From Haloferax marisrubri (GTDB taxonomy: Archaea; Halobacteriota; Halobacteria; Halobacteriales; Haloferacaceae), in NCBI RefSeq assembly GCF_001469875.2, contig NZ_LOPW02000010.1, positions 443,942 through 507,941 of the forward strand: DNA of 64,000 nt. The letters are read 5' to 3'. A program made the translations under genes and the position numbers. The notes beneath the pieces were generated by a model. It did not search any database. It was given only the letters and a program-made list of their open reading frames with translations, and was not told the DNA's origin. Positions within the stretch are counted from its first letter, which is position 1. The number at the start of each line of letters is the position of its first letter. This document shows positions 5,504-18,649 of the stretch, piece after piece.

Positions 5504-6757
5504 TTATTCGCGTCGCACCGCGATGAGCGCGATTGCGACGAGCGCAATCAGCGCGGCGGTGACGCCGAAGCCGGGAATGACCGAGTCAGTCGTCGTCGGC
5601 TCTCCGGTCGTCGTCTCGTCGTCGAAGCCGGGCGTTCCGTCGTCGGACGTGGTAGTGTCGTCACCACCGTCGTCGGAGGTGGTGGTGTCGTCACCACCGT
5701 CGTCCGCCGTCGTCGTCACGGCCTGCGTCGACGTCACGGCGAAGTACGAGAAGCCGGGCGTATCGACTTCCAGCACGACCCGTCCGTCGCCCTCGCTCAC
5801 GACGCGCGTGTCGAGGGTCTCCCACTCACCGCTTTCGTCGTTGTAGCGTTCGACCGCGAGGTCTTGCGCCGTAATTCCGAGTTCGTCGAGTCGGTCTTGT
5901 CTCACGCTCAGCGTGATGGTCGACGGCGAATCGCGGAGGGAGTTCGGGACGTCGATTTGGACGTACCCGATTGCCGCGTTCGACGGTCGACCGACGGTTC
6001 CGGGGAGGCTCGTCCGTTCGCGGACGATGACCTCGCCGGTACCCTGGCTCCCGAACGCCAGGTCGACGTTCGTCACGGTGGAGCCACCGGGGAGCGATGC
6101 GCTGACTTCCGAACCGTAGAAGAGCCGGACGCTCTCGTAGGTTCCGCTGTCAGGGGCACCGCCGCCGCCACCACCGCCGCCGCCACCGCCGCCACCGCCA
6201 CCGCCACCAGACGGTGCTTCGGTGGTCGTCGGCGTGGACGGCGTCGGCGTCGGCGTACTGCCGTCGATGTTGTTCACGTCAACGGTCGTCGTGTCGCCGC
6301 TGTGCGACAGGAGGTTCCCTCTCGTGTCCGTAATCGATTCGACGGTGACGTCGATGGACGCGGCGGTGTCGCTCCCAACGGACTGCGCACTCACCGTCAG
6401 GTCCGCCAGCGAGATATTTCCGGTCGAACCGGAGGTCTCACCCGTGTACCCGACGACGGTGAGCTTTCCGTTGCCGTGGTCGGTCGTCTCCACGTTGAAC
6501 CGGGAGTTCCCGGCAACCGAGACGTCGACCACGCTGTCGTCGTAGCTGATGTTCAGTTCGTACGACCCGATACCGTCCGCGTCTTCGACGTTGTACGCGG
6601 TGAGCGTCGCCGTCGAGTCTGCAGAGCGCTCGTCGATCGAGCCGACGGCGTCGACCGAGACGGTCTTCGCAGTCGCGGCACCGGCCGCGCCGACGGCGAC
6701 CGTGCTGACGAGCATGGCGGTGCACATCGCTACCGCGAGTAGCTGTTTCGTGTTCAT
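5504..6757 (-). CDS. Cohesin-domain surface protein with PGF-CTERM anchor
   Basis: After a signal peptide (about residues 1-30) comes a roughly 140-residue beta-rich domain with the cohesin pattern: GIGSYELNISYDDSVVDVSV, then a strand ending in ISLADLTVSA. A run of 17 glycines follows (bases 6158-6208), then a PGF-pre-PGF-like domain ending TPGFSYFAVTS. The tail has an Asp/Thr repeat (DDGGDDTTTS) and a PGF-CTERM signal, PGFGVTAALIALVAIALIA plus RRE, the target of archaeosortase ArtA. The cohesin call rests on pattern and on the adjacent dockerin gene 3 nt upstream in the operon. It is the likely cell-bound scaffold for the dockerin-bearing proteins. Confidence 0.85.
   Translation of the reverse strand: MNTKQLLAVAMCTAMLVSTVAVGAAGAATAKTVSVDAVGSIDERSADSTATLTAYNVEDADGIGSYELNISYDDSVVDVSVAGNSRFNVETTDHGNGKLTVVGYTGETSGSTGNISLADLTVSAQSVGSDTAASIDVTVESITDTRGNLLSHSGDTTTVDVNNIDGSTPTPTPSTPTTTEAPSGGGGGGGGGGGGGGGGGAPDSGTYESVRLFYGSEVSASLPGGSTVTNVDLAFGSQGTGEVIVRERTSLPGTVGRPSNAAIGYVQIDVPNSLRDSPSTITLSVRQDRLDELGITAQDLAVERYNDESGEWETLDTRVVSEGDGRVVLEVDTPGFSYFAVTSTQAVTTTADDGGDDTTTSDDGGDDTTTSDDGTPGFDDETTTGEPTTTDSVIPGFGVTAALIALVAIALIAVRRE
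6158..6208 (-). repeat. Poly-glycine codon run (17 Gly) in cohesin protein linker
   Basis: On the plus strand this is an uninterrupted run of 17 gcc/acc triplets, encoding consecutive glycines on the minus strand. It separates the cohesin-like domain from the PGF-pre-PGF-like domain. Runs of near-identical triplets are prone to length change by slippage, and any whole-triplet change would keep the frame. Confidence 0.9.
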
Positions 6758-6760
6758 GAG

Positions 6761-7960
6761 TTATGCACCCCCGATGGTGTAGTCGGTATCACGGTTGTTC
6801 TCGCTGTACTGCTGGACGAGCATCGCGTCGACCGCGTTGACCTGCCCGTCGCCGTTGACGTCGCCGTAGGCGGCGTCAGAGCCGCTCGAGGCGGCCTGTG
6901 CGATTTCGGACGCGTCGTCCGCGTCGACGTCGCCGTCGAGGTCGACGTTACCGAGTTCGTAGCCTTCGAACTCCACGGAGACCTGCGTTCCGACGCCGGT
7001 CTGGTTGAGTTGGACCCGCGTCTCGCCGTCGATGGTCGTCTGCTCGACGAGGTTCGCGTCGGTCGTCGCGAAGCCGTTTCCGCGGAGCGGTTTGTCGCTC
7101 GGCGGTGCGATGTCGTACACGACCGTACCGTCACTCTTCGAGATGGTCACGGACACCGTCGTGTTGACGGGCGTCTTCGCGTCCCCGTCGGACTCCGACG
7201 TCGAGTCGCCGACGAGCGTCGGTTCCTCACCGACGTAGGCGACCGGCTGGATGCTGTCGTCGCCGTCGACGAAGGTGACAGACGCCGTCTCAGAGATGCC
7301 GACACCGACGGTGAACTCGGGGGCGTCCGTCAGGCTCGAGCCGACGGTGTGGTCGCCTTCGAGCACGGTCTCGCTGACCGAGTCGGCTTGGCTCTGACCG
7401 TCGAGGACGACGGACGCGCCAGTCACGGCGTTTCCGTCGTTGTCCACGACGCTCGCGTTGACCGTCCCGACGCCGCTCACGTCGAGTTGTTCGCTCGTGC
7501 GAACGTTGTTCGGCTCGTTGTACAGCGGGCGCACGTCAGCGGTCAGCGACGTGGTCCCCGCCGACGAGACGGTCACGTTGAAGTGGTAGGTCCGGGATTC
7601 GCCGGCCGGCACCACTTCGCCCGTGATGAGCAGGGCGTCGCCGGTCGAAATCGTGCTCTGCTGGACGGTCGCGTCTCGTAGGTCAGATGTGTCGTTCACG
7701 TACACCGCGTCTTCGGCCCCGTTCGGGAGTCCGACCGGACTGCTAATCGGAACCTCCACGAGCGGGTTGAGGAGCGCGGTGTCATTGTTGTTCGTAACCG
7801 TTACTGCAATCGTCTGGTTGCCGTCCGTGCTGAGGTCGTCCGGCGCGTCGATGGCGACGCTGAACGGGTCCGCAGCGGACACAACACCCGGACCGACACC
7901 GAACGATATCGATGCCACGACCAGGAGGGCAGCCAGTGTCATTGAGAGTTTTCGTGTCAT
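6761..7960 (-). CDS. Secreted protein with C-terminal dockerin type I domain
   Basis: A signal peptide (TLAALLVVASISFGVGPGVVSA) precedes CARDB-like and regulatory-like beta domains with several N-glycosylation sequons. The last 63 residues (337-399) are a dockerin type I module with two calcium-binding loops of the EF-hand kind: DLDGDVDADDA and DVNGDGQVNAVDA, each followed by a short helix. Dockerins bind cohesins. The gene lies 8 nt after the thioester-protein gene and 3 nt before the cohesin-protein gene, so it is the middle gene of a three-gene operon. It could bridge the other two products on the cell surface; that is inference. Confidence 0.88.
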   Translation of the reverse strand: MTRKLSMTLAALLVVASISFGVGPGVVSAADPFSVAIDAPDDLSTDGNQTIAVTVTNNNDTALLNPLVEVPISSPVGLPNGAEDAVYVNDTSDLRDATVQQSTISTGDALLITGEVVPAGESRTYHFNVTVSSAGTTSLTADVRPLYNEPNNVRTSEQLDVSGVGTVNASVVDNDGNAVTGASVVLDGQSQADSVSETVLEGDHTVGSSLTDAPEFTVGVGISETASVTFVDGDDSIQPVAYVGEEPTLVGDSTSESDGDAKTPVNTTVSVTISKSDGTVVYDIAPPSDKPLRGNGFATTDANLVEQTTIDGETRVQLNQTGVGTQVSVEFEGYELGNVDLDGDVDADDASEIAQAASSGSDAAYGDVNGDGQVNAVDAMLVQQYSENNRDTDYTIGGA

Positions 7961-7968
7961 CGTTCTCC

Positions 7969-10900
7969 TCAGTTGGCGTCCTCGTACTCTTGTTCGTTGA
8001 CGAGCTGTTCGGATTCGGCACCGACAACGACTCGAGTCGAGTTCTCGGCGGTCAGCGTGATACTGCCGGTCTGACGAAGCGTTTCGAGTTCGTCAGTCGT
8101 GAAGGACACCACGGCCGTCGGCGTGTTGCCGTCGACGGTGACGTTCTTCGAGACGGTCGAGTTGATTTCGACCGTCACCGTCTGCGAACCGGCGTTACGC
8201 TGGTCCGCCGTGGTGAGGGCGTCGATTGCGACGCCGGTCGCACGCGTGTTCCCGAAGGAGCCGCCCTGCTGGTAGATTCCAACGAGGTAGCCGACACCAT
8301 CGGAGACGGTATCGTTGTTCGCTGCCGTGTAGCCCTCCGCGGCGTTCAACGCGATAATCGCGTTGCCCGTCGCACGGGCCTTCTCACCGGTGTTGCTCCA
8401 GTACGGCGAGTTCGTGTAACCGGTCCACGAGCCGTCGTCGTGCTGGTTGGCCACGAGCCATTGGGTACCACTGTCGAGCGCCATCGACACGCTGCCCGAA
8501 CTCAGTTCGCTGTTGACCTGCGTCCGGAGGGTGTCGCTGTCGTTGACCGCGGCGAGCGCCTGCACCGCGTACGCGGTCGCCTGCGCTTCTCTCGAACCGG
8601 CTTCCCAGCTACCGTCGCTGTTCTGCCGTTCGATGAGGTGGACCGCGGCGTCGACGCTGAACTCGTCGGCGGCCGTCTGTGCGGTCGCGTTGAGGTCGTC
8701 GCCAGCGCGGTCGATTGCGACCGTCGTGTAGGCGGTCGCGGAGGTTCTGTCGCGGAGGAAGTACCCGTTCGGACGGACACTTCCGTCGTTGCGCTGCTTG
8801 TCTGCCAGCCAGAGCACCGCACCGCTCTGGTTGATCCGCTTGAGACTGGCGTTCACGTCCGTGCGGTTGCTCTGCACCGCGTCGTCGGAGACGGCGCTCG
8901 CGCCCTGCAGGGCGTAGATGGTGTAGAACAGGTCACCGCGCGGGTTGTTGCCGTACATGCTCCACGCGCCGTTGTCGTGCTGGGAGATGTTGAAGTACGT
9001 ACCGGGCGTGGGCTCGTCGGCGAGCTTACTGATACCCGCGCTGATCGTGCTGTTCGCACGGTCGCGGTCGTAGTTGCTCGGGATGTCGCCGTCGCGGTAG
9101 TACTGGTCGGTCCGGAGCGCGGACATCATCTGGGTCGTCGTCTGTTCGACACACCAGTAGGGGTAGGAGAACAGGTATTCGAGACCCTGAAGCGTCCGTC
9201 CGTCCGTCCCGGCCTGCACGGTCACGTTGAGCGTGTGTTCGTAGGTCGTCGCGTCCGAGATGTTGAGCGCGAGCGACTGCGTCTCGCCCGCGGACTCGAG
9301 CGTCGTCGCGTTCGTCGTCGTGTAGCGAACCTTCGGCACCGTGACGTTGGTCGTCGCGGACGCCGTGTCGCTCTCGCCGAACGCTTCGACGGTGACGTCT
9401 ATCTGCGCGTCGTCGATGTCGGCGGTCGTGTTGCCGCGAACCTTCCACGCGGCCGACCCGCCGTTGCCTGTCGCACGAACCTGTTTCTCAGCGGTCTGCC
9501 CGTCGACGAGTTCGAGCCCCGAGGGGAGCGAAACCGTCGCGTTGACGTTCGACGGGTAGTTCGTGTTGAACTCGGCGAGGACGGTGACAGTCGAGTTGTT
9601 CACGACCGTCGAGGGCACCGAGACGTCGTCGTCTTCGATGCTCAGCGTGTACGGCTTCACCGTGACGTCCTTCGTCGACTCGTTGTTGTCGAACGGGACG
9701 CCGTCGGAGACGCTCGCACGCACGACCTTGTCGCCACCCGTCGCGAAGTTGTGGGTGACGCGGGTCGTGTTGGGCTGTTGGACACCGAGGTTTCCGATGG
9801 TGATGTTCTCGGTCGTGCCGTCGTCGTAATCGACGGTCACGTTGAACTCACCGGTCGGCGCGGTACCGTTGTTCTTCGTGAACACGACGAGCGTCGCGCT
9901 CTGGCTCTGGAGCACCGTGCTCTGTCCCTGGATACGGACCGTCGGGTCGGCGTAGACCACGCGCGTGGTGTTGACCGCCTGGTTGTTCGTCTCGTCCGTC
10001 TCGGGAATCTCGTTCGCCGGGTCGACCGTCGCGGTCACCCGCGCGTTACCCTGTGCGAGGGTTCCGAGGAGTTCCTCGCTGGCGAACTCGGTCAGGTCGT
10101 AGCTGAGCGTCGTCTCGTTGTTCGGCGCGTCGGTGCTGTCGGAGAGGTTGCCGGTGTACTTCGTGTACGTCTCCGTCTCGCCGTTTGCGGCCTCGACCGT
10201 CAGGTTGACCGTCGCGTTCGAGACGTTGACGAGACCGTCGTTCGAGACGGTCACGGAGGCGTTCACGCCGTCGTTGAACCGCTGTCGCCGTTCGACGTCG
10301 AGTTCGGGCGAGAGGTCAGCACCCTCCGCGAGGCGGAAGGTGAGGTTCGCACCGCTCGTGTCGACCGTGAGGTTCTGCCAGTACGTCCGGTTGACGAACC
10401 GGTCGTTCTCCGGCGGCGTGACACGGACTTCCATGTCGCCGCGGACCTCGATGCCGGTCTTGTCGCCTTCACCGGCCGGGAAGAGCCCGTCGGCGTTGGA
10501 CTTGTACGCGACACCCGAACGCGTGCCGTCGTTGTTGTGCTGGACCGCAATCGTCGCGTTCTCCACCGGGTCACCGTTCTGGTCGACGACGGTGACGTTC
10601 AGCAGCCCCGCGTCGGGGAGCGTCGTGTTTCCGACGTTCAGAACCCGCTCGGTTCCCTGCGTCGTGTAGAGCGAGAAGATGTCGGGCGACCCGTCGCGCG
10701 GGTGGTCGCCGCTCCAGCCGCTCGCTCCGTCCTGCACGTACGCAATCGTCTGCGTGGTTCCGTTAACGACCGGAACGAGGAACCGACCGTTCTCGTCGGT
10801 GAACGTCTGGCCGACGAACCACGGCTCGTCGCCGGGGTTCGTGCGGCTCGTGTAGACGAGGTCGTCCACGGCGGCGCTCCCGTCGGGCAGTTTGACGTAG

Positions 10901-13578
10901 CCCTTCGCGAGCGGACCGCCGGTGACGCGCGCGTCAACTTCGTTGTTCGTCTCGCTCGCCTCGGCGATTTCGTCAGCCGGGTCGGCGACGACGCGAACGG
11001 AGTAGTTCCGCGCGTCAACGCGTGCGAGCGTGGTGTTGATAGCGACCGACTCGCCCGCGGCGAGGTCGACCGACCGACTGGTGAGTTCTTCCCAGGACCC
11101 ACCGTTGTCGGCTTTCGCTTCGACGATGACGTCGACGCCCGTCGCCTCGACGTTACCGCGGTTTTCGACCGTCGCGTTGACCGGCACGACGCCTTTCGTG
11201 ACGTTCGTTTCGACCGAGAGCGTCGGCGTGATGTCCGGTGCCTTCACGGTCACCGTCTCGGGTGAGAGGTCACCGATACGGACCGTGTGCTCACCGAGTT
11301 CGAGGCCGGTGACGGTAAAGGAGACCGTCTTCGATTCGCCCCCGTCGAGCGTCACCGACTTGGTCTGGGTGATTTCGTCGTCAACCGAGAGCGTCGCGGT
11401 GAACGTGTCCGACACGTCGCCGGTGTTCGTCACCGTCGCGCTCGCGTTGACATCGTCTTCGAGTCCGATTTCGGTCGCGTTGACCTGCAGGTTCGAGTAC
11501 TCGAGGTTCGCCGGCTTGTCGACAGTCACGGTCTGGGCGGGAAGCCCGTCGATCGCGATCTGGTACGTGCCGGGACCGAGATCCTTCTCGAAGGTGACCG
11601 TCGTGGATTCGTCGGGCGCGAGCGTGCCGTTCATCCACTCGACGGTCTGACCGTCGATGACGAGCGACGCGTTGTACTCGCCAGCGCCGGTTCCGTTGTT
11701 GCTGACATCGGCACTCACGACCGTCGTCTCACCCGGTGAAACCTGACTCGGAGCCGTGAAGTTCGAGTAGACGATGTCCGGGACGCCGCTGACCTCGATG
11801 GCCGTCGGCGTCGCGTCGTTGACCGTCACGTCGTACGTGCCCGGTGCGTCGAAGCTCAGTTCGAACTGCTCGACGACGGTCTCGCCTTCGCCGACGAACA
11901 CCGTCTTCGACTCGACGGTCTGACCGTCACGCTTGAGGTCGACCGTGAAGTTCCCACCGAAGTAGTCGGTGTTCTCGATGGTCGCGTTGACCGTCACCGT
12001 CTCGTCCGTCGTCACCGACGTCGACGAGACGTTGTAGTCGGTGAGTTCGATGTTCGGCGTGATGACGTACAGGTCGACGCTCGACGAGATGTACGCGGTT
12101 CCGTCGGACGGCGCTTTCGTGGCCGTCGCGGTTCCGGACTCGACGGGCGTGAACGTCACTTGACCGTTCGAATCGGTCGTGAACGTCTTGCCGTTGTACG
12201 TCACGTTCGCACCAGCGACGCGGTCGCCGGTGTCTGCCCGGGTGACGTTGAGCGTGACGCTCTCTCCCTGCTGGATTTCGACCGCGCTCGGCTCGATGTT
12301 GAGCTGGACGCCGTCGACGAGCTCGACGGTCGCCTTGTTGCTCAGCGTGGCCGTCCCGTTCTGTGCGGTCGCGAAGTGAACCACCGAGTAGTTACCCGGG
12401 GTGAAGTTCTCCGTCGTGCGAAGCGTGACCGTTTCCTTCGGCCCGCCGACGGTCCCGTTGATACTCGTGTAGATGACCGTGTCGTCGGTCTGCGTCACGC
12501 TGTCTTCACCGGCGAGCCGCGAGAGCAGCGAGACGATGTTCGTGTTCCCGTTGTAGCGACTCGCGGGAAGCGTGCTCCCGGCGAAGTTCGTTCCGGGCTT
12601 CACGTCGGTCGCCCCTTCGATCCGGTCGATGGACGACTGAATCTCCTCGACTTCGCTCCCGTTGAGCTGAATCGTCTGCTGTTGGTCGCCGAGGACGGAC
12701 TCGTTCAGCAGAATCGTCGTGTGCGAAACGTCGTCCGTGCCCAGGTTCGACGCGTCCACGTCGACGTTCACGTCGTTACCGACCGCGGCGACCTCCGGCG
12801 GCGTCACGGTCGACCGACCGTCCTGCACGAGGAAGTGGTCGAATCCGACGACCGTCACGTTCCCTTCGGCGGTGAGGTTACCGGGCGACGAGCCCTGCAC
12901 CAGTCCCGGGTCGGTGCTGTTCTCGACGAGGACCGTCGCGAAGATGTACTGCCCGGACTCGTTGGGCGTGAATCTGAAGTTCTGCGTTCCGCTCTGCCCG
13001 GTGAACTCGTCGACGATTTCGGCGTTCGTGTCCTTGCTCGTGGTGAGCAGTTTGCCGATATCGCTGATGCCACCCGGTTGCTTCGCGCCCTCCTTCAGGC
13101 GGACAGCGACCAGTTGGACTTTCTCCCCGTCGACCACGCTACTCTGCCCGGCTTTGCCCGGATTGAAGGTCGCGGTGATCTCCGTCTTGTTGAAGACGTA
13201 GATTCGGTTTTTGTCCAAACTGGTCTCCAGGTCGCTCGTCCCGACGAAAATGTTCGTGTTCCGTATCTCGTGGCTGATGTACGGAACGTCGTCGAGTGTG
13301 ACAAACTCGCTCGACGCCGCCGGGTTATTCGGCCGGAGTGTTAGCAGCGAATACTGCCACACGGAGACGTTCTCTCCGGCGTCTATTTTCAACTCGTCAC
13401 TCACCGCAGGTGTTGTCGCTCCATCTATCGGAGCGGAACCCCCTCCGCTGAGTGAGGCCGATGCGTCTGCTGAGGTGAGGGTGCTCGCGCTAACGGGCCC
13501 TACCACCATGGATAGAACCACAACCCCCGTCAGAACTAAACTCAAGAGTTTAGTCCTGTTGCTGGTCGTAGGCCTCAT
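7969..13578 (-). CDS. Giant secreted CARDB / alpha-2-macroglobulin-like protein with thioester motif
   Basis: This is a 1869-residue secreted glycoprotein. The signal peptide ends near Ala31. CARDB-like domains lie at about 510-590, 600-690, 690-780, 780-890 and 1090-1205, with carboxypeptidase-regulatory-like repeats at about 890-1046. Residues about 1460-1780 match the thioester domain of bacterial alpha-2-macroglobulins. The key motif is PYWCVEQTTTQM, with Cys1476 and Gln1479 in the CxEQ arrangement that forms the internal thioester. Helix pairs with QNSDGSWE, QHDDGSWTGY and QQGGSFGN repeats follow, as in alpha/alpha toroids. A short beta domain ends the protein. I see no anchor, dockerin or cohesin in it. 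It probably traps proteases or attaches covalently to targets. Confidence 0.88.
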   Translation of the reverse strand: MRPTTSNRTKLLSLVLTGVVVLSMVVGPVSASTLTSADASASLSGGGSAPIDGATTPAVSDELKIDAGENVSVWQYSLLTLRPNNPAASSEFVTLDDVPYISHEIRNTNIFVGTSDLETSLDKNRIYVFNKTEITATFNPGKAGQSSVVDGEKVQLVAVRLKEGAKQPGGISDIGKLLTTSKDTNAEIVDEFTGQSGTQNFRFTPNESGQYIFATVLVENSTDPGLVQGSSPGNLTAEGNVTVVGFDHFLVQDGRSTVTPPEVAAVGNDVNVDVDASNLGTDDVSHTTILLNESVLGDQQQTIQLNGSEVEEIQSSIDRIEGATDVKPGTNFAGSTLPASRYNGNTNIVSLLSRLAGEDSVTQTDDTVIYTSINGTVGGPKETVTLRTTENFTPGNYSVVHFATAQNGTATLSNKATVELVDGVQLNIEPSAVEIQQGESVTLNVTRADTGDRVAGANVTYNGKTFTTDSNGQVTFTPVESGTATATKAPSDGTAYISSSVDLYVITPNIELTDYNVSSTSVTTDETVTVNATIENTDYFGGNFTVDLKRDGQTVESKTVFVGEGETVVEQFELSFDAPGTYDVTVNDATPTAIEVSGVPDIVYSNFTAPSQVSPGETTVVSADVSNNGTGAGEYNASLVIDGQTVEWMNGTLAPDESTTVTFEKDLGPGTYQIAIDGLPAQTVTVDKPANLEYSNLQVNATEIGLEDDVNASATVTNTGDVSDTFTATLSVDDEITQTKSVTLDGGESKTVSFTVTGLELGEHTVRIGDLSPETVTVKAPDITPTLSVETNVTKGVVPVNATVENRGNVEATGVDVIVEAKADNGGSWEELTSRSVDLAAGESVAINTTLARVDARNYSVRVVADPADEIAEASETNNEVDARVTGGPLAKGYVKLPDGSAAVDDLVYTSRTNPGDEPWFVGQTFTDENGRFLVPVVNGTTQTIAYVQDGASGWSGDHPRDGSPDIFSLYTTQGTERVLNVGNTTLPDAGLLNVTVVDQNGDPVENATIAVQHNNDGTRSGVAYKSNADGLFPAGEGDKTGIEVRGDMEVRVTPPENDRFVNRTYWQNLTVDTSGANLTFRLAEGADLSPELDVERRQRFNDGVNASVTVSNDGLVNVSNATVNLTVEAANGETETYTKYTGNLSDSTDAPNNETTLSYDLTEFASEELLGTLAQGNARVTATVDPANEIPETDETNNQAVNTTRVVYADPTVRIQGQSTVLQSQSATLVVFTKNNGTAPTGEFNVTVDYDDGTTENITIGNLGVQQPNTTRVTHNFATGGDKVVRASVSDGVPFDNNESTKDVTVKPYTLSIEDDDVSVPSTVVNNSTVTVLAEFNTNYPSNVNATVSLPSGLELVDGQTAEKQVRATGNGGSAAWKVRGNTTADIDDAQIDVTVEAFGESDTASATTNVTVPKVRYTTTNATTLESAGETQSLALNISDATTYEHTLNVTVQAGTDGRTLQGLEYLFSYPYWCVEQTTTQMMSALRTDQYYRDGDIPSNYDRDRANSTISAGISKLADEPTPGTYFNISQHDNGAWSMYGNNPRGDLFYTIYALQGASAVSDDAVQSNRTDVNASLKRINQSGAVLWLADKQRNDGSVRPNGYFLRDRTSATAYTTVAIDRAGDDLNATAQTAADEFSVDAAVHLIERQNSDGSWEAGSREAQATAYAVQALAAVNDSDTLRTQVNSELSSGSVSMALDSGTQWLVANQHDDGSWTGYTNSPYWSNTGEKARATGNAIIALNAAEGYTAANNDTVSDGVGYLVGIYQQGGSFGNTRATGVAIDALTTADQRNAGSQTVTVEINSTVSKNVTVDGNTPTAVVSFTTDELETLRQTGSITLTAENSTRVVVGAESEQLVNEQEYEDAN

Positions 13579-13755: not shown

Positions 13756-14241
13756 ATGCGAAGACGCCGGTTCCTTACTGCGTTCTCTGCGATGGTCGTC
13801 GGAACTGCCGGCTGTACACAGGAGTCCGAAACCGAGGTATCAACCCAAACACAAACGACGCTCCCGACGAGAACGCCCTCACCGTACGTCGAGCAGGCGG
13901 ACGAGTTTCGGTCGTTCCTCCAACAAGAAGAGATTTCCATCGTCGAACTCCTCCCGCAACCGCCGGCGAACGCGGTGGAACTCACGTACGTCTCGAACGA
14001 AGACCAGTACGAGGAAGTCGGCGGGGAAATCGGCACGATTGCCGGCGGCTTCTTCAATCGGGTCGCAAACGGCTGGGAGGCCGAGCGCCTGAACGCGGTG
14101 GTCATGGACAGCCCCGAGTCCCGCTTCGGGACGTGGTACGCGAAGTCGTCGTGGTTCGAGGAGTACCGAGACGGCGAGATCTCTTCGAACGAACTCTCGC
14201 TCAAAGTGTTGAACACGCTCTCGCGCGCGGAAGACGCGTGA
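13756..14241 (+). CDS. Predicted Tat lipoprotein, unknown function
   Basis: The N-terminus MRRRRFLTAFSAMVVGTAGC is a twin-arginine-like signal with a lipobox ending at Cys20. A Thr/Ser-rich linker (to about residue 40) leads to a compact alpha/beta domain of about 120 residues with the phrase VELTYVSNEDQYEEVGGEIG. Small haloarchaeal lipoproteins with this layout are common and uncharacterised. It is divergent from the thioester operon and 41 nt before the DUF1616 gene, which has its own TATA box. I cannot assign a function. Confidence 0.8.
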   Translation: MRRRRFLTAFSAMVVGTAGCTQESETEVSTQTQTTLPTRTPSPYVEQADEFRSFLQQEEISIVELLPQPPANAVELTYVSNEDQYEEVGGEIGTIAGGFFNRVANGWEAERLNAVVMDSPESRFGTWYAKSSWFEEYRDGEISSNELSLKVLNTLSRAEDA

Positions 14242-14282: not shown

Positions 14283-15308
14283 ATGACCTCCGACACGGAC
14301 TGGCTATCGCTCGTCCCGCGCTCGGTTCGCGCCGCCCCTGCGGACCTACTCGCGGTCGTGGTGGTTGCCGTCCTCACCTGCGGTGCAGTCACCCTCCCCG
14401 GCGTCCGCGACACCCCGCTTCGGGTCGTCCTCGGCCTCCCGTTCGTGCTTTTCGTCCCCGGCTACGCAGTTATCGCCGCGCTGTTCCCGGAGTCGGGGCC
14501 CTCGGTCGCCGCGAGCGGCGACGCCGACGCGGCCGACCGGACGGGAATCGACGGTATCGAGCGGGTCGCGCTCTCGTTCGGGACGAGCATCGCCCTCGTC
14601 TCGGCGCTCGGACTGCTCCTCAACTTCACGCCGTGGGGGCTTCGACTCGTTCCGATTGTCGTCGCTATCGGCCTACTCACGGTCGCGGCCGCGGTCGTCG
14701 GGTCGCGTCGGCGGGCCGCCCTCCCCGAGAGCGAACGTTTCGGCGTCGCGGTCCGGTCCAGTCTCCCAAATGACCCGAACCCCTTTTCGTCCGGGTCGCG
14801 GACTGACGCGGCTTTCGCCGTCGTGTTGGTGCTCTGCCTCGCGGTCGCCGTCGGAGTGGGCGGATACATGGTCGCCGCTCCCGGGTCCGGGGAGTCCTTC
14901 TCCGAGATATACGTGCTGACGGGGAACCAATCCGGGGACCTCGCCGCGGAAGACTACCCGACGGAACTCACTGCGGGGGAGCCCACGTCGCTCACCGTCG
15001 CCGTCGGCAACCACGAGGGGGCGGCCACCGACTACGTCGTCGTCTCGCAACTCCAGCGCGTCCGGGTCGCCAATAACACGACGACGGTCCTCGAACGCGA
15101 GGCACTCACCCGGTACCGACCGTCGGTCGAGGCCAACGCGACGTGGCGGACTGAACACGCGGTCACGCCGACGATGACCGGCGACCGACTCCGACTCACT
15201 TACCTCCTGTACGAGGGGTCGGCACCCGCGGAGCCGACGGCTGCAAACGCCTATCAGTCGGTCCATCTCTGGGTGAACGTGACGGCTCCGGACTCCGCCT
15301 CCTCCTGA
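14283..15308 (+). CDS. DUF1616 family membrane protein (paralog 1)
   Basis: A DUF1616 protein. Paired N-terminal helices surround the family stretch PLRVVLGLPFVLFVPGYAVI. Helices follow at about residues 95-145, and another at about 177-200 precedes an extracytoplasmic beta domain to the C-terminus containing LTVAVGNHEGAATDYVVV. The protein is very similar in order and sequence to the one at 26538. The family has no established activity that I know of; members sit in envelope and glycosylation neighbourhoods in archaea. A TATA box (TTTTAG at 14252-14257) supports the start at 14283. Confidence 0.88.
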   Translation: MTSDTDWLSLVPRSVRAAPADLLAVVVVAVLTCGAVTLPGVRDTPLRVVLGLPFVLFVPGYAVIAALFPESGPSVAASGDADAADRTGIDGIERVALSFGTSIALVSALGLLLNFTPWGLRLVPIVVAIGLLTVAAAVVGSRRRAALPESERFGVAVRSSLPNDPNPFSSGSRTDAAFAVVLVLCLAVAVGVGGYMVAAPGSGESFSEIYVLTGNQSGDLAAEDYPTELTAGEPTSLTVAVGNHEGAATDYVVVSQLQRVRVANNTTTVLEREALTRYRPSVEANATWRTEHAVTPTMTGDRLRLTYLLYEGSAPAEPTAANAYQSVHLWVNVTAPDSASS

Positions 15309-15320
15309 CCGACGCCGCTA

Positions 15321-17555
15321 TTACGCCCGGATTTCCGCGAACAGCGCCTGTACGTCCACGACGTTGACGCGACCGTTTCCGGAGAAGTCGAACGCCTCCG
15401 GCGTGCCTTCGACCGCCTCGGCGTTGCGGTTGGCGAACAGCGCCTGCGCGTCCGCGAGTGTCACGTTTCCGTCTCCGTTGACGTCCTCGTAGCGTCCGTC
15501 GCCGTCGGGGTCGGTCGGCGGCGCTGTTTCGCTCGTCACGGTACGCGGGAGCGCGGCCGTTTCGTTGACCGCGCTCCACGTGTCGAGCATCCCCGCGCCG
15601 ACGGCTGGTTCCGTCTGTGGGAGCGGTTGCGCCGTTGACCGGAGAACCCGCGTCACGTCGGCGCGGGTCGCGTTCGGGTTCGCGTCGAGGAGGAGCGCGA
15701 CCGTGCCGCTCACGTGCGGGGCAGCCATCGACGTCCCGTCGAGCGTGACGTACGGTTCGGCCTCGTCGCGCTGTGACGTCGAGTACGCCGACGTGACGTT
15801 TTCTCCCGGAGCGATGAGGGCGATGCCGGGCCGCCGGTCGTCTCCGAACCCGACCGGGCCGTGACTCGAAAACGAGGTCACGCCGGACGTCGTCTGTCGC
15901 GCCGCACCGACCGTAATCGCGCCCTCCGACGCGCCGGGACTCGCCACCGAGCGGTTTCCGAGCAACCCGGCGTTGCCGGCCGAGATGACCGCGACCGTGT
16001 CCGTCGTCGTCACGAGCGAGTCGACGTACCGGGAGAACTGGTCGCTCCCGTTCGACGGGTAGTACGCCGTCGCCCGGTACCGATACGACACCGACTCGGG
16101 GTGGTCGCTCTCGACGGCGAGCGACCAGTTCCCGGGGGTTTCGATTGCCGTCTCGTTCCGAGGGGTGAACCTCTGGTACGCGATTGCTTCCGGCACGCGG
16201 CCGTCCTCGAACCACCAGCCCGCATCGACGCCCCTGAGCGGGGTTTCGCCCGCGGGGTCTCGAAGCGTCACCGAGAGGTTCCGCATGACTTCGGCCCGTC
16301 GCTCGTCGCTTTGAATCCGCTCGCCGCCGACCTGCGTCGGTTCGACGAGCACGTAGACGTACGCCGGTTTGAACCCGTCGTACCGCGCGCTGGCTTGGTA
16401 CACGCCGGACCCGTTCGCGTAGAGTTCGATGTCGCTCGCTCCGGTCCCGTTCGGCCGGACCGCCCGCTCGCCGCGGTATTCGAGCGGGAACGGACTGGCA
16501 CCGAGGCTCGCGGAGACCACGTCCGCGCGGTTCTCGGCGCTCCACTCCATCGCCGCCATCACGTCCGACATACTGCCCTGTCCGTCCTCGTCGAGGGCGC
16601 GCGCGCCGAACAGCCGTGCTTCGGGTGCGACGCCGACCGATTTGTTCGCGTCTGCCCGCCCGGCGACCGTCCCCGCGACGTGCGTGCCGTGACCCCACGG
16701 GTCGAACGGCTGGGAGGTGTCGCCCACGAAGTCCTTCCACCGGACGACCTGCCCGCGGAGCGCCGGGTGGCTGTCGTCGATGCCGCTGTCGATGACGCTG
16801 ACGTTCACGCCCGCGCCGGTGATTCCACGGTCCTGTACGTCGTCGGCACCAATCGATTCGAGGTTCCACGATTCCGTTCCGCTCGCCGCGACCCGCGCGC
16901 TGTCCGGTCGGACCGTCTCGCCGTACGCGGACAGCGAGTCCAGATACGCGGCGACGCTCGGCGACACCGACCCCGTCGCGTAAATCGGCCGGTCGTAGTG
17001 AATCGCGGAGACGTTCGGCATCCCACCGAGCGTTCGCACGACCGCGGGCGTCGCCTCGACGGCGAGCGCGTTCCGCGTCCAGAACGGCGTCACGTCTGTG
17101 ACGTTGCCGCTTTCCCGTCGCGCGTCGAGGAATTCGCGCACGTCGGACTGCGTTCGGTTGGTCGTCTCTCTGAGTCGGGCGCGCGTCGTCTCAGACTCGC
17201 CGGGCGCGTCGGCCGACTCGCGCGAGGGGTCGTCGAAGACGAGGATGACCGGGACCAGTTCGTCCGACGCCGCGCGCGACAGTTGATACGCCGCCGCGCC
17301 CGAGAGAACGCCGTCCCCGGTCGTCTCGTCGTCGGGCGCAGTCGTGTTGTTGGTCGTCTCGTCGTCGGGCGCAGTCGTGTTGTTAGTCGTCGCGAGGTCG
17401 GCGGCGGCCGCTGTGGCCGCGCCCCGCTCGGACCCGCCTAACTCGGCATCGGGCGGGCGCGCCGCTTCGGAGACCGGTGCGAGCGTCGCGCTCAGAAGCA
17501 GACAGAACACGATGCCGACGACGGCGGCCCGCGTCCCTCGTTGCGTTCGAATCAT
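15321..17555 (-). CDS. Secreted subtilisin-like (S8) protease with C-terminal dockerin
   Basis: A signal peptide (residues 1-31) is followed by a low-complexity NNTTAPDDET tandem repeat and an I9-like propeptide (about 90-195). The S8 catalytic domain has Asp256 (VIDSG), His289 (HGTHVAGT), oxyanion Asn528 (ISAGNAG) and Ser609 (GTSMAAPHVSG). All catalytic residues are present, so it should be active. A roughly 150-residue beta-rich insert (about 356-507) splits the domain between His and Asn. The C-terminus is a dockerin with loops DVNGDGNVTLAD (691-702) and DFSGNGRVNVVD (723-734). It is divergent from a cohesin-like gene, its probable surface partner. Confidence 0.92.
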   Translation of the reverse strand: MIRTQRGTRAAVVGIVFCLLLSATLAPVSEAARPPDAELGGSERGAATAAAADLATTNNTTAPDDETTNNTTAPDDETTGDGVLSGAAAYQLSRAASDELVPVILVFDDPSRESADAPGESETTRARLRETTNRTQSDVREFLDARRESGNVTDVTPFWTRNALAVEATPAVVRTLGGMPNVSAIHYDRPIYATGSVSPSVAAYLDSLSAYGETVRPDSARVAASGTESWNLESIGADDVQDRGITGAGVNVSVIDSGIDDSHPALRGQVVRWKDFVGDTSQPFDPWGHGTHVAGTVAGRADANKSVGVAPEARLFGARALDEDGQGSMSDVMAAMEWSAENRADVVSASLGASPFPLEYRGERAVRPNGTGASDIELYANGSGVYQASARYDGFKPAYVYVLVEPTQVGGERIQSDERRAEVMRNLSVTLRDPAGETPLRGVDAGWWFEDGRVPEAIAYQRFTPRNETAIETPGNWSLAVESDHPESVSYRYRATAYYPSNGSDQFSRYVDSLVTTTDTVAVISAGNAGLLGNRSVASPGASEGAITVGAARQTTSGVTSFSSHGPVGFGDDRRPGIALIAPGENVTSAYSTSQRDEAEPYVTLDGTSMAAPHVSGTVALLLDANPNATRADVTRVLRSTAQPLPQTEPAVGAGMLDTWSAVNETAALPRTVTSETAPPTDPDGDGRYEDVNGDGNVTLADAQALFANRNAEAVEGTPEAFDFSGNGRVNVVDVQALFAEIRA
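17322..17387 (-). repeat. Tandem 30-bp repeat encoding NNTTAPDDET twice
   Basis: Two nearly identical 30-bp units lie back to back near the 5' end of the protease gene. They encode the ten-residue unit NNTTAPDDET twice, adding two NNTT glycosylation sequons between the signal peptide and the propeptide. The boundaries are approximate. Copy number could vary between strains without breaking the frame. Confidence 0.75.
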
Positions 17556-17797
17556 CTCTTCGGGAGTCGTCTGGGCGAGGGCACGGCTGTGACGGCGAGC
17601 ATCTTATTCGAGAGGTACTGTCAATCGCGGCTACTGGCCTAAAACATCCATCGGTCGTGCCGACGGGGAGACCGTTTGGTAAAACACACATATTGGCGTT
17701 ATACTCATGCGGACGAATGACGGTCTGCGGTCCGCCGTCCGCCGGTCCCGGAACAGAAAAGTAGTCCGACTCGTAACACGTCGGGTACCGAACCCAA

Positions 17798-18649
17798 ATG
17801 TCGACTAGACTGGCTCTCGTCGTCCCGCTCGGTCTTCTCGTGCTCGTCAGCCTCGGCCTCGGCGTCGCCCCCGCCGGGGGAGTGACAGCGCAGGACAACG
17901 TATCGGTCGTCGTGACGCCGGCGTCCCAAGACGCCGAAGTCGGGTCCACGACGACCTACGACCTCGTCGTCCGCGGCCTCGACGGCGGCGGTGTCGGCGC
18001 GGCCGACGTGACGGTCAGCGTCGACGAGTCGGTCGCTACCGTCGCTAACGCGTCGTTCGTGCCCGACCCCGGGCTGAACGAGGTCACGTACAGCGACGGG
18101 CGCTCGCAAGTTCGCCTCTACGGGGCGCTCATCGACACGTCGCAGTCGGGGTCCGTCACTATCGCGACCGTCACGGTCGAGAGCAGCGCGAACGGGACGA
18201 CCCCAATCGGGGTGGACGTGACTGACGTCGGGAGCGAAGCCGGTGTCAGCTATCGAATCACGGCCGTCGAAAACGGGAGTCTCGTCGTTGGTGCGGGGAG
18301 TTCGAACACGACGACTGCGGTAGAACGCACGACTAGTGAGGGTTCGTCGTCGCAGGACGGCGGCGACGGTTCCGATTCCGACTCCGAATCGACCGCCGGC
18401 GAGTTGACGGTCTCGGCGATGGGCGGCGCTGATGCGGACGCGAACGACACGAGTTCGCCCGTCGCGTCGTCGTCATCGACGGCGAGCGCCACGACGGACG
18501 GACGGGACGAACCCGCAGAGTCCACCACCGAACCCGCCACGTCAGCGATACCGACGGAGACGGCCGCCCCCGGCCCGTCGATACTTCTCACTACGGTCTC
18601 TCTCCTCGTCGCCGGTCTGTACTTCTCGGTGCGAACCCGCTCCGATTGA
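17798..18649 (+). CDS. Cohesin-like domain protein with C-terminal membrane anchor
   Basis: A signal peptide (LVVPLGLLVLVSLGLGVAPAGG) is followed by a beta-sandwich of about 135 residues with the haloarchaeal cohesin pattern. It has VGSTTTYDLVVRGLDGGGVG, then ADVTVSVDESVATV, then VTIATVTVES. A Ser/Thr/Asp-rich stalk of about 100 residues leads to a membrane helix, PSILLTTVSLLVAGLYFSV, and a basic end. This is a second cell-anchored cohesin candidate. It is divergent from the dockerin-bearing protease gene across a 242-bp spacer, which suggests a matched pair. The cohesin call is from sequence pattern only. Confidence 0.75.
   Translation: MSTRLALVVPLGLLVLVSLGLGVAPAGGVTAQDNVSVVVTPASQDAEVGSTTTYDLVVRGLDGGGVGAADVTVSVDESVATVANASFVPDPGLNEVTYSDGRSQVRLYGALIDTSQSGSVTIATVTVESSANGTTPIGVDVTDVGSEAGVSYRITAVENGSLVVGAGSSNTTTAVERTTSEGSSSQDGGDGSDSDSESTAGELTVSAMGGADADANDTSSPVASSSSTASATTDGRDEPAESTTEPATSAIPTETAAPGPSILLTTVSLLVAGLYFSVRTRSD

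Follow-up and report, generated by a model that had tools for sequence, protein, structure and literature searches.

The window analysed here is a 64 000-nucleotide stretch of contig C10 in the 3.9-Mb genome of Haloferax marisrubri, and the system in question is a pair of divergent genes within it. The product of one is a secreted S8 protease (subtilase) that ends in a dockerin, and that of the other is a cohesin protein predicted to be anchored in the membrane (Table 1). The genes start 242 bp apart, where a preliminary description of the window, made from the sequence without database searches, had correctly placed them. A separate group of cohesin, dockerin and alpha-2-macroglobulin (A2M)-like genes, referred to here as the first operon, lies 1.7 kb from the subtilase gene. 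In the region between the two divergent genes, conserved A-rich elements lie toward either gene and may serve as promoters.

Table 1. Positions of the subtilase and cohesin genes, their domains and the neighbouring genes in the window
Feature	Position	Strand	Basis
PGF-CTERM cohesin gene, first operon	5504–6757	−	PGF-CTERM 8.8e-9; Cohesin 23.6 bits against a cut-off of 24.1
Dockerin gene, first operon	6761–7960	−	Pfam dockerin 1.2e-12
A2M/TED-like gene (CARDB/TED), first operon	7969–13578	−	Alpha-2-macroglobulin-like, E 1.4e-8 (Pfam)
Lipoprotein-like gene	13756–14241	+	Block member, synteny
DUF1616 gene	14283–15308	+	Pfam; block member
S8 subtilase, secreted, 744 aa, dockerin at the C-terminus	15321–17555	−	Pfam; hydropathy
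Dockerin, two calcium loops (DVNGDGNVTLAD and DFSGNGRVNVVD), helix after each	15324–15512	−	Pfam; alignment with 5 paralogues; AlphaFold2
S8 domain part 2, aa 504–646, oxyanion Asn and catalytic Ser	15618–16046	−	Pfam best stretch
Insertion of ~150 aa within the S8 domain, between the His and Ser parts	16047–16496	−	No Pfam family at E≤0.01 (16038–16508)
S8 domain part 1, aa 252–353, catalytic Asp and His	16497–16802	−	NCBIfam NF049966 stretch; motifs
Divergent intergenic region, 242 bp, with conserved A-rich elements	17556–17797		Alignment of 5 Haloferax orthologues
Cohesin protein, predicted membrane-anchored, 283 aa	17798–18649	+	Hydropathy; fold
Cohesin domain, aa 32–167, ~136 aa	17891–18298	+	AlphaFold2, Foldseek
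Ser/Thr/Asp-rich spacer	18299–18574	+	Sequence
C-terminal hydrophobic helix, aa 260–278, followed by a short basic tail	18575–18631	+	Kyte-Doolittle 1.77

A subtilase with a dockerin and its cohesin neighbour

The product of 15321–17555(−) matched the S8 peptidase family PF00082 in Pfam (E 2.4e-48) and, at aa 689–738, Dockerin_1 (PF00404, E 1.2e-7) with a score of 32.3 bits, above the curated cut-off of 22.9 that defines a type I dockerin. Both calcium loops were recognized in the alignment, and the helix following each was seen in an AlphaFold2 model. The model of the whole protein was unreliable (mean predicted local distance difference test score, pLDDT, 46.8; 6 alignment rows) and the dockerin part alone was usable (pLDDT ~79–86). 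The translation includes the motifs VIDSGID, GHGTHVAG, SAGN and GTSMAAP, which we take to hold the catalytic Asp, the catalytic His, the oxyanion Asn and the catalytic Ser, respectively. The Asp, His and Ser columns were invariant across six aligned S8-dockerin proteins, as is required of peptidase S8. On these motifs the protein is a complete subtilase, presumably with proteolytic activity. Its single hydrophobic stretch above the threshold is N-terminal. No Pfam family was found at E≤0.01 in the region of the insertion (16038–16508), which is also present in the orthologue from Haloferax sp. Q22.

The product of 17798–18649(+) matched no Pfam family at E≤1 and had no NCBIfam match, and the Pfam cut-off for cohesins was not reached. 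Its domain was modelled by AlphaFold2 (40 alignment rows) with a mean pLDDT of 95.1 and a predicted template modelling score of 0.88, and when the model was compared with the PDB using Foldseek, ranks 1 to 42 were all cohesins. VIA-align gave Z scores of 14–15 against type I cohesins and 14.1 against the Archaeoglobus fulgidus cohesin (2xdh), with a root mean square deviation of 2.5 Å over 125 residues at ~15 % identity. Judged by this modelled fold, which is that of PF00963, the domain can confidently be called a cohesin. Hydropathy rises to 2.61 from aa 5 and to 1.77 from aa 260, in keeping with a signal peptide and a C-terminal membrane helix. One cohesin match was found in the protein, rather than the several cohesins and the carbohydrate-binding module of a cellulosome scaffoldin. 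The preliminary description had proposed a protease with the full set of catalytic residues and a terminal dockerin, beside a protein with a cohesin-like domain and a membrane tail, and each of these assignments is supported. The outcome that it had named as counting against it, a 17798–18649 product that does not match cohesin, did not occur at the level of the fold.

Cohesins and dockerins in the genome

The genome includes seven Pfam dockerins and ten cohesin domains, all of them on C10 between 282 and 462 kb. The Pfam cohesin model matches two of the ten cohesins, one above the cut-off (25.1 bits) and that of the first operon at 23.6 bits, and eight share the same divergent sequence type. 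All seven dockerin genes have a cohesin either within the same gene or in a nearby one, and the proximity of the subtilase and cohesin genes is therefore not due to chance. The adjoining cohesin and dockerin genes, found with no cellulosome scaffoldin, correspond to a noncellulosomal archaeal system.

Six of the seven dockerins are of the subtilase type, the other five being 57–67 % identical to that of the subtilase, and the dockerin of the first operon is of another type. In five of these six proteins (1640, 740, 1194, 1180 and 967 aa) the dockerin is preceded in the chain by one or two cohesins. The subtilase is the only one with no cohesin in its own chain, and its gene is adjoined by the gene for a free-standing anchored cohesin. 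Free-standing cohesin genes were also found downstream of the genes for the 1180-aa 5'-nucleotidase-like protein, which it overlaps, and the 967-aa beta-helix protein, at a distance of 0.8 kb. The beta-helix protein (L012 10242–13142, C10:434241–437141) has two cohesins of different types, one above the Pfam cut-off, as well as its dockerin.

The subtilase and its neighbour had been described as a second pair repeating the first operon. The first operon is real and follows the same display logic, but the two are not copies of one pair. At dockerin positions 10, 11, 17 and 18, which we take to be the recognition positions of type I dockerins, the subtilase has L, A, F, A in the first repeat and V, V, F, A in the second, and the first-operon dockerin has A, D, A, Q in the first and A, V, Q, Q in the second. 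This comparison leaves out the second repeat of the 1194-aa paralogue. Because these positions differ and the two cohesins are only 21 % identical, cross-binding between the pairs is unlikely. The large product of 7969–13578(−), whose gene adjoins the dockerin and cohesin genes of this operon, contains a thioester-like motif, CVEQ.

The preliminary description also needs correction in that the pair belongs to a larger network of ten cohesins and seven dockerins. Other cohesins in this network could compete for the subtilase and other cargoes could compete for its neighbour.

Conservation within Haloferax

Orthologues of the subtilase (E<1e-60) were found in 5 of 15 Haloferax genomes, and in all five the divergent cohesin gene that adjoins it is an orthologue of 17798–18649. 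The residues at the four dockerin positions were the same across the five orthologues, save for a V-to-A change in the second repeat of one (G004). Compared with the window, the cohesin domain was 79–91 % identical and the spacer 48–91 % identical, the spacer being less conserved than the domain in three of four orthologues and equally conserved in the closest. G013, from the same genus group, and Haloferax sp. Q22 have S8 proteins of equal length and with the same C-terminus, and their cohesin proteins (L058 and L013) are identical, which identifies the genus as Haloferax.

Synteny was read in four further Haloferax genomes and the Haloferax sp. Q22 record, with the window as the fifth genome. 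In all five genomes with the subtilase, the cohesin, S8, DUF1616, small lipoprotein-like and A2M/TED-like genes were found together beside orf129-DUF4350, and ~11–12 kb away was a cohesin that matched the first-operon one in score and frame length. The junction in five genomes lacking this block (G001, G002, G007, G009 and G010) was without the S8 gene, this cohesin gene, the DUF1616 gene and the first-operon dockerin gene. From the gene order, what is inherited, gained or lost is a ~13-kb block as a whole, not the S8-cohesin pair alone.

The reading that no other Haloferax has this cohesin was rejected, as a relative (55 % over 142 aa; L150 2204–3322(−)) was found in G012, which has no S8 orthologue. 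The divergent neighbour begins ~180 bp away and is the first part of a gene for a homologue of the 1640-aa dockerin protein, cut off by the end of the contig. A gene on another contig is 58 % identical to the C-terminal half of the 1640-aa protein and includes a dockerin, and the two pieces may or may not belong to one gene. The arrangement points to retention of the anchor type and of the divergent layout with a change of cargo, possibly by a cargo swap.

Linkage across the order

Profiles of these cohesin and dockerin modules were used to survey 195 genomes at the level of the order. Cohesins were detected in 68 genomes and dockerins in 72, with both present in 63, cohesins only in 5 and dockerins only in 9 (Fisher p 5e-35, calculated over genomes that are related). 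Among the matches listed, 82 of 142 cohesin places had a dockerin within 2 kb and 57 of 150 dockerins had a cohesin within 2 kb. When ten dockerin-rich genomes were dropped, a choice made after the data had been seen, the latter count was 51 of 60 listed dockerins, and the chance estimate of 0.22 for that subset used counts summing to 61, not 60.

Relatives of this cohesin protein were found at 22 places, including one at L088 that was counted though it was not in the domain scan of that locus. A dockerin gene adjoined in 14 and none adjoined in 3, while the remaining 5 were masked or at a contig end. The divergent layout recurs in Haloarcula amylolytica (L034) and at L072, L079 and L080, where the L080 cohesin is the same as that of Haloarcula amylolytica. 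Twelve loci (L103–L114) were chosen because the profile survey had placed a cohesin and a dockerin close together. A protein of 876–945 aa with both a cohesin and a dockerin was found in all twelve, with a second cohesin gene alongside in nine. Three of them were scanned, and all three are PhoX-like. The pair recurs across families. A tree of 75 cohesins was poorly resolved.

Probable surface display of the subtilase and the alternatives

The domain identities, the adjacency of the genes, their co-inheritance and the order-wide linkage of cohesins with dockerins are established, and on balance we favour the explanation that the neighbouring anchored cohesin retains the S8 protease at the cell surface. 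The protease would be exported, mature and then be caught outside the cell, its calcium-loaded C-terminal dockerin plugging into the cohesin that the divergent gene encodes. This cohesin would be kept at the cell surface by a flexible Ser/Thr/Asp-rich stalk and the C-terminal membrane helix. A secreted subtilase would in this way become a non-covalently bound, exchangeable, cell-bound enzyme, one of the cargoes carried by a modular haloarchaeal surface system of cohesins and dockerins that includes adaptors bearing both modules. Display of an active protease through a calcium-dependent contact had been proposed in the preliminary description. Its domain calls and the logic of display are supported; the binding, the choice of partner, the calcium dependence and the proteolytic activity are what we infer.

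Several points weigh against this explanation. The identity of the cohesin rests on its fold because sequence profiles run against the PDB are suggestive at best. A profile that included two Pfam-like cohesins matched cohesins at E 0.001, a result that is partly circular. When those two members were left out, a cohesin ranked first, at E 0.17, with unrelated chains behind it, and a search with 40 rows listed five matches that were all cohesins but weak (E 0.03–0.18). The co-occurrence of the two genes in 5 of 15 Haloferax genomes was rejected as proof of a specific pair, because the whole ~13-kb block is present or absent together. The relative in G012 has a different neighbour, and this type of cohesin is therefore not tied to S8. 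The nine other cohesins in the genome are possible competitors. In addition, S8-dockerin proteins of 572–602 aa were found in four genomes (G003 and G005, both Haloferax, G078 and G160) with no cohesin by the profiles used.

There is a smaller but appreciable chance that the subtilase docks mainly on other cohesins of the genome, namely the anchors at 431 and 438 kb of C10 or the adaptors with both a cohesin and a dockerin, and that its neighbour also serves other cargo in a shared network. The similarity of the five other dockerins to that of the subtilase and the eight cohesins of one divergent type are consistent with sharing, as are the change of cargo gene in G012 and the relatives of the 431- and 438-kb anchored cohesins, recognized by frame length and score, in the other four genomes with the subtilase. 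However, adjacency to the subtilase is conserved for the 17798–18649 cohesin only, and in the tree this cohesin forms its own lineage, with weak support, apart from the adaptor cohesins.

It is unlikely that the dockerin functions without any cohesin, in substrate binding or in calcium-dependent stability of the protease, with the neighbour serving another ligand. Substrate binding is how dockerins were interpreted, in two papers (PMC10963439, PMC13260240), for haloarchaeal polysaccharide-degrading enzymes, a Natronoglomus mannanase and a glycosaminoglycan (GAG) lyase. These resemble the subtilase in being secreted enzymes with a type I dockerin, and the word cohesin is absent from the main text of those papers. 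The S8-dockerin proteins from genomes with no detectable cohesin point the same way, as do GH10-dockerin proteins in two more (G089 and G133, by the same profiles). The Pfam cohesin model, applied to eight cohesin-less genomes, found nothing at E≤0.01 in seven and a sub-threshold match in G133. Set against this are the strong order-wide linkage of the two modules and the distance of the S8-dockerin of H. elongans, which is of the cohesin-less kind and shares 33–36 % identity in the aligned parts. Substrate binding may suit the genomes without cohesins but does not account for those in which the modules are linked.

It is very improbable that docking restrains the protease, with the surface cohesin and the A2M/thioester-like protein checking it or guarding the cell against proteases. 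The A2M/TED-like gene with its CVEQ motif is within the co-inherited block, which is in favour of such a role, but its product has no dockerin or cohesin match of its own in Pfam.

Relationship to known systems

The pair resembles the noncellulosomal cohesin (2xdh) and dockerin of A. fulgidus in being archaeal, not cellulolytic and of the same cohesin fold. It differs in that the cargo is a full subtilase and the anchor ends in a predicted membrane helix, and in the low identity of the cohesins given above. The A. fulgidus cohesin and dockerin genes likewise adjoin each other. Surface display in Escherichia coli is reported to have made use of the A. fulgidus pair.

As in the clostridial cellulosome, where S8 peptidases are listed in a table of catalytic proteins (PMC12484212), the dockerin-bearing protein is an S8 peptidase. 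Unlike that system, neither the S8 nor the cohesin protein has a carbohydrate-binding module, an SLH domain or a glycoside hydrolase by Pfam, and the anchor has a single cohesin. According to another paper (PMC9012536), archaeal dockerin-cohesin binding has been verified, and scaffoldins with several cohesins had not been seen in archaea in earlier work. The same source describes scaffold-like proteins with up to five cohesins in anaerobic methanotrophic archaea (ANME). The ANME dockerin and cohesin proteins are likewise archaeal sets but belong to other clades and have other cargo, whereas here the cargo is PhoX-like, 5'-nucleotidase-like or S8. No description of a haloarchaeal cohesin-dockerin pair was found in paper titles and abstract openings, a search outside which most subscription literature lies.

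A possible wider haloarchaeal system

More tentatively, haloarchaea may possess a widespread and largely unannotated cohesin-dockerin surface system that operates in high salt. Anchored cohesins, adaptors and proteins with two or three cohesins would form chains. On display would be PhoX-like phosphatases, 5'-nucleotidases and beta-helix proteins, with the S8 protease, which lacks a cohesin of its own, as a terminal cargo. The result would be a non-cellulosic enzyme complex at the cell surface whose anchors can swap cargo. This is the more novel part of the proposal and draws on fold, adjacency and linkage. If correct, it would explain how some haloarchaea avoid losing their secreted enzymes to the brine and keep them on the cell. 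Haloarchaeal dockerins, at least where a cohesin is encoded nearby, would no longer be read as substrate-binding. Many haloarchaeal surface proteins now called hypothetical would become recognizable as cohesins. The docking pairs would be salt-tolerant, and with the subtilase and its neighbour calcium-dependent docking in molar salt could be studied in a defined set of two genes.

S8-dockerin proteins of ~570–600 aa are encoded at four loci (L093, L094, L115 and L116) in genomes with no detected cohesin. In one genome, G141 (L118, L083 and L078), there were at least 32 dockerin matches and five cohesins, and the dockerin proteins include rhamnosidase-like and MmgE/PrpD-like ones. A search of plasmids gave no near match and two distant ones. 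Cohesin proteins of this kind in two plasmid records carry the annotation hypothetical, and a 5'-nucleotidase gene adjoins one of them. Proteins with three cohesins were found in Haloarcula pellucida (L017 10191–13190) and Halomicroarcula rubra (L018 12330–14882). They are scaffold-like, and each closes a run of dockerin genes.

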